A stretch of DNA of 64,000 nucleotides from positions 1,373,311-1,437,310 of the forward strand of contig NZ_CP009149.1 in assembly GCF_000739065.1 (NCBI RefSeq), written 5' to 3'. The notes under the pieces are model-generated. The model was not told the DNA's origin. It made no database searches and saw only the letters and a program-made list of their open reading frames with translations. The translations under genes were made by a program, and so were the position numbers. Below are positions 1,538 through 57,134 of this stretch, in pieces. Source of the stretch: Methanocaldococcus bathoardescens (GTDB lineage Archaea > AGJL01 > Methanococci > Methanococcales > Methanocaldococcaceae). Numbering within the stretch: position 1 is the stretch's first letter; every line of letters starts with the position of its first letter.

Positions 1538-1572
1538 ATGATACGCCTCCCTTAACGGGTTCGGCGTATCAT
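1538..1572 (-). ncRNA. Archaeal SECIS element in the fmdB 3' UTR
   Basis: Read on the minus strand, a 10-bp stem (AUGAUACGCC with GGCGUAUCAU) is followed by the asymmetric internal loop GAA on the 5' side and A on the 3' side. A 3-bp CCC/GGG stem then carries a small loop. This is the archaeal selenocysteine insertion sequence consensus. It starts 39 nt after the fmdB stop codon, the usual 3'-UTR position in methanogens, and serves the in-frame UGA at 2581-2583. It would act with the selenocysteine elongation factor SelB, which is not in this window. Confidence 0.95.
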
Positions 1573-1587
1573 CCTAAACGTTTAGCT

Positions 1588-1604
1588 GGCTGGACTTCCT
1601 GGCT
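1588..1604 (-). promoter_or_regulatory. 3' UTR arm complementary to fmdB coding sequence just past the Sec codon
   Basis: The minus-strand sequence AGCCAGGAAGTCCAGCC is a perfect 17-nt complement of the fmdB coding stretch at 2535-2551. It begins 7 nt after the stop codon and ends 15 nt before the SECIS stem. The coding partner begins 29 nt after the UGA and encodes the conserved AGLPGCTAG segment. Pairing would loop out about 930 nt and place the SECIS near the UGA. The complementarity is seen directly; its function is inference. Confidence 0.6.
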
Positions 1605-1611
1605 TAATTTT

Positions 1612-2943
1612 TTAGTTTTTCTTTCCTTCTTTAATTTCCTTAACCTTTACAAATATCTGTCTTAAAGTGTCTTCATTACTCTTTGTGAATGGGAATGGTG
1701 AGGTTGTGAATGGTTTTGCATACAAAGTTAAGCCGTCAAATCTATAGAACGTTGCTCCACATTCCATTCCATCAATAACTCCTGGCAATACTACATCTGA
1801 AGCGTAAGGTGTAGGGCCGGGAGCTATATCTATACAAACCATCGGAATTTCATTTAAATATTTTGCACAGTCTTTTGGTGTATGTGCTACAATATCAGCG
1901 GCAACAACTAACACAGCGTCAATTTCTCTTTCTCTCAAAAGGTCAGCAAATGTGAACTCTCCTGGATTGTATCTTGGATAACCTCTTGCGAAATCTAAAC
2001 CGTAAGGGTAGCCATACATGTATGAAGCAACTTGGTTGAATCCATTAACGTTACAGTGCCCTCTTAAAGCTCCAATAGCACATTTTGTATATTTGTTTAA
2101 TTCCCTAACTAAAGTTAAGACACATTCAATATTTCTATGCCCACCTCTTGATGCTGGCAACCCTAAACCACCATAAATCTTTACAAATTTAGCGTTTTTC
2201 ATCCACTCAACCATTTCTTCCATAACCTCAATTGGAACGCCAGTGATTTTCTCAACACTATGGTGAGGTTTTTTACCCCTCAATATTGTTAATAAGGCAG
2301 AGAACATCTCATAGTCAGTGTTTGGCTTTAACTGAACATGTAAATCTGCTAACTTTGCAGTATCTGTTTTTCTTGGGTCAACAACAACTATCTTTCTATC
2401 CTTTCTACCTCTCTCAGTCCAATAACCTCTTGCAAAGACTGAATATCTACTCATATGTCTTGGGTGTGAGTGCATCGGATTACAGCCCCAGAATATTATT
2501 AAATCAGCTCTATTTTTTACCTCACCGGCAGTACAGCCAGGAAGTCCAGCCTCTTGAACCCCCATTAAAGTAGGCCCGTGTCATATTGTTGAGTTTGAAT
2601 CAACAACTCCCCCTAAGTATTCAGCCATGTGCAATCCAACAATATGGGCTTCAGCAGATGTCTCAGCTCCCATAAATAATAAAGGTCTTTTAGCATTTGC
2701 TAAAATTTCTGCTGCTTTTTCTATAGCTTCTTCCCAGCTAACTTTAACAAACTTTCCATTTTTCTTTATCATTGGTTCTCTTATTCTATGTGGGCTAACA
2801 AGCTCTTTAAACTTTGGTGCTCCTTCTCTACAAACATTTTTTACAATTATCTCCTGCTTTTCTTCATCATACCAAACCTCTATATCATCACACGCCATCC
2901 CACAGACGGGACAAGTTATGCCCCTAAAAACCTTCATAGTCAT
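1612..2943 (-). CDS. fmdB: Formylmethanofuran dehydrogenase subunit B, selenoprotein
   Basis: This is the catalytic subunit of the molybdenum/tungsten enzyme that reduces CO2 to formylmethanofuran, the first step of methanogenesis. The two open segments 2581-2952 and 1612-2565 are one frame interrupted by TGA at 2581-2583. The flanking residues DSNSTI-U-HGPT match the family active site, where the metal ligand is Cys or Sec, so the UGA encodes selenocysteine 121 of a 443-residue protein. The N-terminal CPVCGMACDDIEV motif supplies an Fe-S site. A SECIS hairpin follows the gene. I chose ATG at 2943 because GGGTGA lies 5 nt upstream; the GTG at 2952 overlaps that site. Last gene of the fmdE-fwdA-fmdCD-fmdB operon. 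Annotation pipelines will probably split it in two. Confidence 0.95.
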
Positions 2944-18471: not shown

Positions 18472-18583
18472 TATAGTGTCTTTCAAAATTGATAAAATTT
18501 ATTAAGGAAGATTTGAACGCCTTTCTTTGGAAAGGCGTTTATAAATACCTTATTTATTCCAATGAGTTTTGAAAGACACTATA
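18472..18583. mobile_element. MITE-like element with 17-bp perfect terminal inverted repeats
   Basis: TATAGTGTCTTTCAAAA (18472-18488) and its exact reverse complement (18567-18583) enclose 112 bp with a strong internal hairpin (AACGCCTTTC / GAAAGGCGTT). The terminal sequence matches that of the element at 56362-56503 at 14 of 17 positions. It lies between the divergent genes cbiT and the S2P-like protease, so it is likely part of their transcribed or promoter DNA. Confidence 0.72.
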
Positions 18584-18656
18584 AATATGCTATGAAATAG
18601 TAATATATAGTAATAGGAATTAAAAATGTAATTAAAATAAAAATAGGGGGAGGGGT

Positions 18657-56361: not shown

Positions 56362-56503
56362 ATAGTTTTTTGCAAAACTTATTAAAATTAAAAAGGCATA
56401 TTTGAAGCTCTTTAGAGCTTATTAAAATTAAAAAGGCATATTTGAAGCTCTTTAGAGCTTCAAATATGCCTTTTTAATTTTAATAAGTTTTGCAAAAAAC
56501 TAT
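56362..56503. mobile_element. Long perfect hairpin element with internal 40-bp tandem duplication
   Basis: The ends ATAGTTTTTTGCAAAA and its reverse complement mark a 142-bp element. Without one copy of the exact 40-bp tandem repeat (56381-56420 and 56421-56460) it is a 102-bp perfect palindrome: a 49-bp stem with the loop TTTA. The termini match those of the element at 18472-18583 at 14 of 17 positions. It ends 4 bp from the stop codon of the fumarylacetoacetase-like gene, and could also act as a terminator for that gene. Confidence 0.75.
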
Positions 56504-56507
56504 TTGG

Positions 56508-57134
56508 TTATTCCTCATCTTTAACATAGTTTCTTAAAATTCCAATGCCTTCTATTTCACATTCTACAACATCTCCTGCCTTTAATTCACCAACTCCTGG
56601 TGGTGTGCCAGTTGAAATAATATCTCCAGGATATAGTGTCATTATTGAAGAGACAAACTCAACCAATTCATAAACATCAAAAATCATATTTTTTGTGTTT
56701 GATTTCTGTCTTATCTCTCCATTAACCCTACATTCAATATTTAAGTTCATTGGGTCTATGTCTTTGACTATTCTTGGCCCTATTGGACAAAAGGTATCGA
56801 ATGATTTAGCCCTTGTCCATTGCCCATCTTTCTGCTGTAAATCCCTTGCTGTTACATCGTTTAAAATTGTGTAACCCATTATGTAATTGTCAGCTTCTTC
56901 TTTTTTAATATTCTTTCCTTTCTTTCCAATGACTATGGCTAATTCAACCTCATAATCTACTCTCTTAGAGATTTTTGGTTTTATAATGTAGTCTTCATTA
57001 TAGATGATGGCAGAAGTTGGTTTTAAAAATATTATTGGATATTCAGGAATTTCCATATTTAGCTCTTTTGCATGGTCTATGTAGTTTAAACCAACACAGA
57101 TAATTTTTGTTGGATTTATCTCTTTTATGTCCAA
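56508..57134 (-). CDS. Fumarylacetoacetate hydrolase family protein
   Basis: This 208-residue single-domain FAH-fold protein has KIICVGLNYIDHAKELN, FLKPTSAII, the metal ligands VDYEVELAIVIGKKG (E-x-E) and the catalytic YTILNDVTARDLQQKDGQW. The C-terminus TGTPPGVGELKAGDVVE is typical. Members hydrolyse or isomerise oxo-acids; the substrate is unknown here. GGTGATACTTTGG precedes ATG 57134. Confidence 0.85.
   Translation of the reverse strand: MDIKEINPTKIICVGLNYIDHAKELNMEIPEYPIIFLKPTSAIIYNEDYIIKPKISKRVDYEVELAIVIGKKGKNIKKEEADNYIMGYTILNDVTARDLQQKDGQWTRAKSFDTFCPIGPRIVKDIDPMNLNIECRVNGEIRQKSNTKNMIFDVYELVEFVSSIMTLYPGDIISTGTPPGVGELKAGDVVECEIEGIGILRNYVKDEE

Follow-up and report, generated by a model that had tools for sequence, protein, structure and literature searches.

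The fmdB mRNA of Methanocaldococcus bathoardescens contains a perfect 17-nt complementarity between the coding sequence just past its selenocysteine codon UGA and the 3'UTR just before its SECIS. Judging by sequence comparison, this pairing very likely serves as a long-range RNA clamp positioning the SECIS near the UGA. Delivery of the SECIS by such a clamp, as proposed in an earlier note on this DNA, agrees with the observed complementarity, its conservation, its presence in a paralog and other selenoprotein genes, covariation in fwdB and selD, the lack of such pairing in Cys homologs and in genes with a nearby SECIS, and a nearly fixed spacing between arm and SECIS. Such a clamp would raise selenocysteine insertion.

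The window (the whole analysed stretch of 64,000 nt) belongs to a single-contig genome of 1,607,556 bases of the Methanocaldococcus type. fmdB, coding for subunit B of formylmethanofuran dehydrogenase, occupies positions 1612..2943 of its reverse strand, as do all the elements described below for this gene. The frame stays open once TGA is read as selenocysteine, and the product scores 617.8 bits against the TIGR03129 equivalog (cut-off 327.8). The UGA is located at 2581..2583 and encodes residue U120 of the product (P0001). The coding arm of the putative clamp, GGCTGGACTTCCTGGCT (2535..2551), covers +30 to +46 past the UGA, leaving a gap of 29 nt. Its partner AGCCAGGAAGTCCAGCC (1588..1604) starts 7 nt past the TAA stop codon (1612..1614) and forms 17 Watson-Crick pairs out of 17. 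All coordinates given earlier for this pairing proved correct.

The SECIS, ATGATACGCC-GAA-CCC-GTTAA-GGG-A-GGCGTATCAT, was located by motif search at 1538..1572, 15 nt past the UTR arm. A 25-nt spacer (1563..1587) separates the clamp from the GAA of the SECIS kink-turn (1560..1562); in other clamp-bearing fmdB genes this spacer is 23–30 nt long. The hairpin fits the archaeal SECIS pattern (a stem, GAA opposite an A bulge, 2–3 G-C pairs and a loop of 4–8 nt, here 5 nt), is situated in the UTR, and the in-frame UGA of its gene aligns with Cys codons (TGC/TGT) of homologs. By its sequence it is an ordinary archaeal SECIS, the same hairpin with the kink-turn-like GAA/A motif as in other archaeal 3'UTRs. 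In the literature consulted these elements are treated as acting at no fixed distance, whereas the fmdB SECIS bears an address arm. No Rfam match was found for it at the gathering threshold. It is followed by a T-rich run in which, by inspection only, no obvious complement to the coding arm region can be seen. Elsewhere in the window, a perfect inverted repeat of at least 45 nt with closely spaced arms is located at 56362-56520, and shorter ones of about 17 nt occur at 29-198 and 18472-18584.

The pairing had been held unlikely to arise by chance, and shuffling bears this out. Dinucleotide shuffles of both 90-nt stretches never exceeded 13 nt in 20,000 trials, and 13 nt was also the maximum in 300 shuffles when the whole fmdB coding sequence was compared with the 3'UTR. 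Windows of 90 nt elsewhere in fmdB coding sequences have complements of at most 11 nt. The 17-nt pairing is the sole complement of at least 12 nt within the fmdB mRNA, and a genome-wide search with the 17-mer, allowing up to three mismatches, finds only the two fmdB arm sites. For the fmdB duplex, an energy of about -13.6 kcal/mol is predicted at 85 °C; the arms of mesophiles are predicted to form weak duplexes at this temperature.

We surveyed 36 Methanococcales genomes and found the fmdB clamp in five of them. Two Methanocaldococcus orthologs (G006 and G010), 96–98% identical, keep the pairing at 18–19 nt, and in a second genus it spans 19 nt (G034) and 16 nt (G035). UGA-containing fwdB and fmdB carry the pairing, whereas their Cys homologs have just 6–12 nt matches at scattered positions. 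The arm was not detected in the UGA-bearing fmdB of Methanococcus or of G015, G016, G018–G020, G022, G023 and G029. Among these, the G022 gene has a SECIS, while for Methanococcus, G023 and G029 neither arm nor SECIS could be detected. The UGA-containing fmdB genes with neither a nearby SECIS nor a long arm include L145–L147, L148, L149, L150 and L151. A trans-acting guide was sought for the clamp-less fmdB of G022, G023 and G029 and was not found. The two best candidates outside fmdB (in G023 and G029) were coding-like sequences lacking a SECIS and were dismissed. In the comparison of relatives, suggested earlier as a check, the arm recurs in other Methanocaldococcus and the pairing covaries in fwdB and selD; G022 has an fmdB SECIS with no detectable arm. 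The existence of several UGA genes without a detectable arm (subsets of fmdB and selD) counts against the clamp.

Arms of 11–28 nt, connecting the coding region just past the UGA with the sequence right before the SECIS, are frequent in UGA-bearing fwdB, hdrA, selD and fmdB of the surveyed genomes and weaker in vhuD. fwdB, hdrA and selD share the fmdB layout, but their arm sequences are very different. In fwdB, an fmdB paralog with about 45% identity, the coding arm GCAGGATGTAGGATACCCC at +24 to +42 pairs with GGGGTATCCTACATCCTGC just 5' of the fwdB SECIS; the arms are 12–26 nt long in most thermophiles and 9–11 nt in Methanococcus. The hdrA arms reach 15–28 nt in many genomes. Arms of 17–22 nt, often including the stop codon, are found in selD of Methanocaldococcus and of G034 and G035, and were not detected in selD outside these genomes. 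The second UGA of vhuD has an arm of 11–13 nt whose partner lies at the end of the coding sequence; being coding and short, it makes a weaker case. In almost every hdrA, fwdB and fmdB gene the GAA is separated from the arm by about 23–31 nt; this distance is more variable in selD (23–104) and vhuD (11–43). fruA and vhuU have their UGA just 72–75 nt ahead of the stop codon and SECIS, leaving neither room nor need for a clamp. The known 5'UTR pairing of fdhA was recovered as well (13–17 nt in Methanocaldococcus).

Two further observations concern vhuD and hdrA. The second UGA of vhuD is replaced by UGU (Cys) in G004, G009 and G012, and the first two of these still retain the arm complement (L261, L262, L266). 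Just past the hdrA stop codon (for example in L227, L226, L239 and L236), a GATGA...CTGAT-like motif is found on both sides of a stem that surrounds or replaces the SECIS. The motif persists where the SECIS was lost (G002, G013), with a variant in G012; from its sequence, it resembles a C/D-type kink-turn and is possibly an L7Ae site.

Since the fmdB coding arm is invariant across the five clamp-bearing genomes, fmdB alone is unable to show covariation, and this evidence rests on fwdB and selD. In fwdB, 90.1% of the cells are paired, with six double-changed pairs in 19 cells (16 distinct rows, 19 pairs); in selD, 93.5% are paired, with seven double-changed pairs in 23 cells (14 rows, 21 pairs), both percentages being favoured upward by the choice of registers with the best complementarity and the former also by exclusion of two weakly paired mesophile rows (G019 and G020). 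The covariation score was matched by none of 500 shuffles for either gene, and fwdB registers slid by 1–3 positions gave at most 43.1% paired cells; the shuffles take no account of relatedness, whereas the slid registers do.

The closest known system is the 5'UTR SECIS of Methanococcales fdhA1, reported in 2025, whose flanks are complementary to the coding sequence past the UGA (PMC11881835). These flanks place the SECIS 43 nt 3' of the UGA and are longer in thermophiles (PMC11881835). The 17-nt flank of the fmdB SECIS is similarly complementary to the coding sequence 3' of the UGA, but fdhA1 has its SECIS in the 5'UTR with two flanks, while fmdB, fwdB, hdrA, selD and probably vhuD have it in the 3'UTR with one arm 5' of the SECIS. 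As the fmdB SECIS belongs to the 3'UTR, we regard it as a variant of the fdhA1 type rather than a member. The 3'UTR clamps mostly span about 1 kb or more. The clamp is new in the 3'UTR and extends to 3'UTR genes what had been described for fdhA1 only. When a 5'UTR clamp was engineered into a bla reporter in mesophilic M. maripaludis, total activity was unchanged, the mRNA level was threefold lower and activity per mRNA twofold higher (PMC11881835). As total activity was not raised, the function of the clamp is inferred. In the same mesophilic species, a SECIS was functional across 520–679 nt without arms (PMC9622424). The published results from this mesophile are thus mixed with regard to the clamp.

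According to the model we favour, the 3'UTR arm would pair after transcription with the coding arm 30–46 nt past the UGA, looping out about 930 nt. The SECIS is 3' of the UTR arm, whose 3' end would be joined to the 5' end of the coding arm, so that the SECIS would exit the helix at its UGA-proximal end. When a ribosome pauses at the UGA, the SECIS would thus be held a few dozen nucleotides in front of it, and a SECIS-bound factor could there assist aSelB with its Sec-tRNA. The tether would raise the local concentration of the SECIS at the UGA, and the duplex would presumably re-form after each ribosome passage. We know of no archaeal SECIS-binding factor. Helix orientation and predicted duplex energies favour reading the pairing as a tether; in the living cell the duplex would then form and increase insertion, especially at high temperature.

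The same pairing principle probably acts in trans in some Methanocaldococcus by means of a small RNA. Positions +8 to +30 of hdrA (CCCCAAAGATGGTTAGCGTTGCA) have a perfect complement in a conserved element 7.2 kb downstream, which lies within the 3' region of fwdB and directly 5' of the fwdB arm, so that a single SECIS bears two guides. Of 14 genomes searched across the genus, 13 have one copy of this guide-SECIS element (examples are L298:1487-1590, L302:1490-1595 in G002, L294 on the reverse strand, L303 and L286); the remaining genome, G007, is an incomplete assembly. In most Methanocaldococcus the element, including a TATA-like box, sits shortly past the fwdB stop codon. Almost every copy examined has the box roughly 30 nt upstream of GGGGTGGGCG (G010 is ambiguous), and the predicted fold of the element includes a stable SECIS (z between about -3 and -3.7). 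No plausible family match was found in Rfam 15 with E up to 10. A literature search, with most subscription journals outside its coverage, found no published report of such an element.

In three genomes the element is displaced from fwdB. In G012 it stands alone in an intergenic region at 315,241, with an opposite-strand ORF on either side and a T-run after it, whereas hdrA and fwdB are found near 757,000–763,000, 440 kb apart from it. In G002 it lies 4.8 kb from the fwdB UGA and 10.7 kb from the hdrA UGA, downstream of an ORF that we take to be ksgA, and fwdB is directly followed by an opposite-strand ORF. In the incomplete G008 assembly, the element, fwdB and hdrA are on contigs C6, C16 and C12, respectively. 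A scan of the 19-kb cluster found SECIS elements just for vhuD, vhuU and the guide element in G002, and just for vhuD and vhuU in G012. The fwdB guides of these three genomes differ, each matching 16 of 16 core positions with its own fwdB only and 13–15 with the others; two compensatory changes are present in the hdrA guide of G002. Within the genome, the fwdB guide matches perfectly at the element and at fwdB only. Displacement, combined with guides that track the mRNAs of each genome, suggests a trans-acting guide-SECIS RNA. We think it likely that a small RNA of about 105 nt, transcribed from a promoter of its own, combines the hdrA and fwdB guides with a SECIS; it would recruit the selenocysteine machinery to UGAs of other transcripts. 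Where the genes are collinear, a transcript running from hdrA through fwdB (7.2 kb) could possibly allow the hdrA guide to act in cis; this is unlikely in G012, G008 and G002. The hdrA UGA may also be served by neighbouring SECIS elements on a polycistronic mRNA.

The duplex itself could stimulate readthrough, much as a selenocysteine redefinition element or a viral readthrough structure does, by stalling the ribosome at the UGA, making SECIS proximity secondary. In favour of this, the arms start +7 to +46 past the UGA, where the ribosome has its leading edge or slightly beyond it; however, the starting point varies (+7 in selD, +46 in vhuD), a local hairpin would stall equally well, and the partner adjoins the SECIS, keeps a nearly constant distance from it and is placed so that the SECIS is turned toward the UGA. 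We therefore find this explanation unlikely. Still less probable is a role in mRNA stability or protection, or in repression of translation at low selenium, with no part in SECIS positioning. The engineered clamp did alter the mRNA level, albeit downward, but pairing accompanies a UGA whose SECIS is distant, the arm is right past the UGA and not anywhere in the coding sequence, and guides at separate loci are ill-suited to 3'-end protection. Chance, inverted duplication of conserved coding sequence or protein conservation alone can be dismissed on covariation: coding arms do encode conserved residues, but the compensatory changes in fwdB and selD and the recurrence in several gene families of arms of up to 28 nt, against a chance maximum of 13 for fmdB, leave this almost no probability.

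A SECIS-positioning clamp has parallels outside selenocysteine biology. Plant RNA viruses use long-distance pairing for readthrough or frameshifting (tombusvirus PRTE-DRTE, BYDV): there too, a structure just past the recoded stop codon pairs with a 3'UTR element, though the systems are viral and involve neither SECIS nor selenocysteine. Archaeal C/D box and H/ACA sRNAs bring a functional module to its target by guide sequences. A trans guide-SECIS RNA would act alike, its guide-borne module being the SECIS and its target the UGA codon; we do not claim membership in either class.

The distance between a SECIS and its UGA has so far been regarded as unimportant. For thermophiles, covarying address arms offer a concrete, testable answer to how an archaeal SECIS can reach a UGA that is a kilobase distant, together with a rule for where arms occur. 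If the trans SECIS guide RNA is real, it would be categorically new: the recoding signal would be uncoupled from the message, and the stop codon to be redefined would be chosen by base pairing instead of linkage. Such a guide could serve as a programmable tool for stop-codon recoding.
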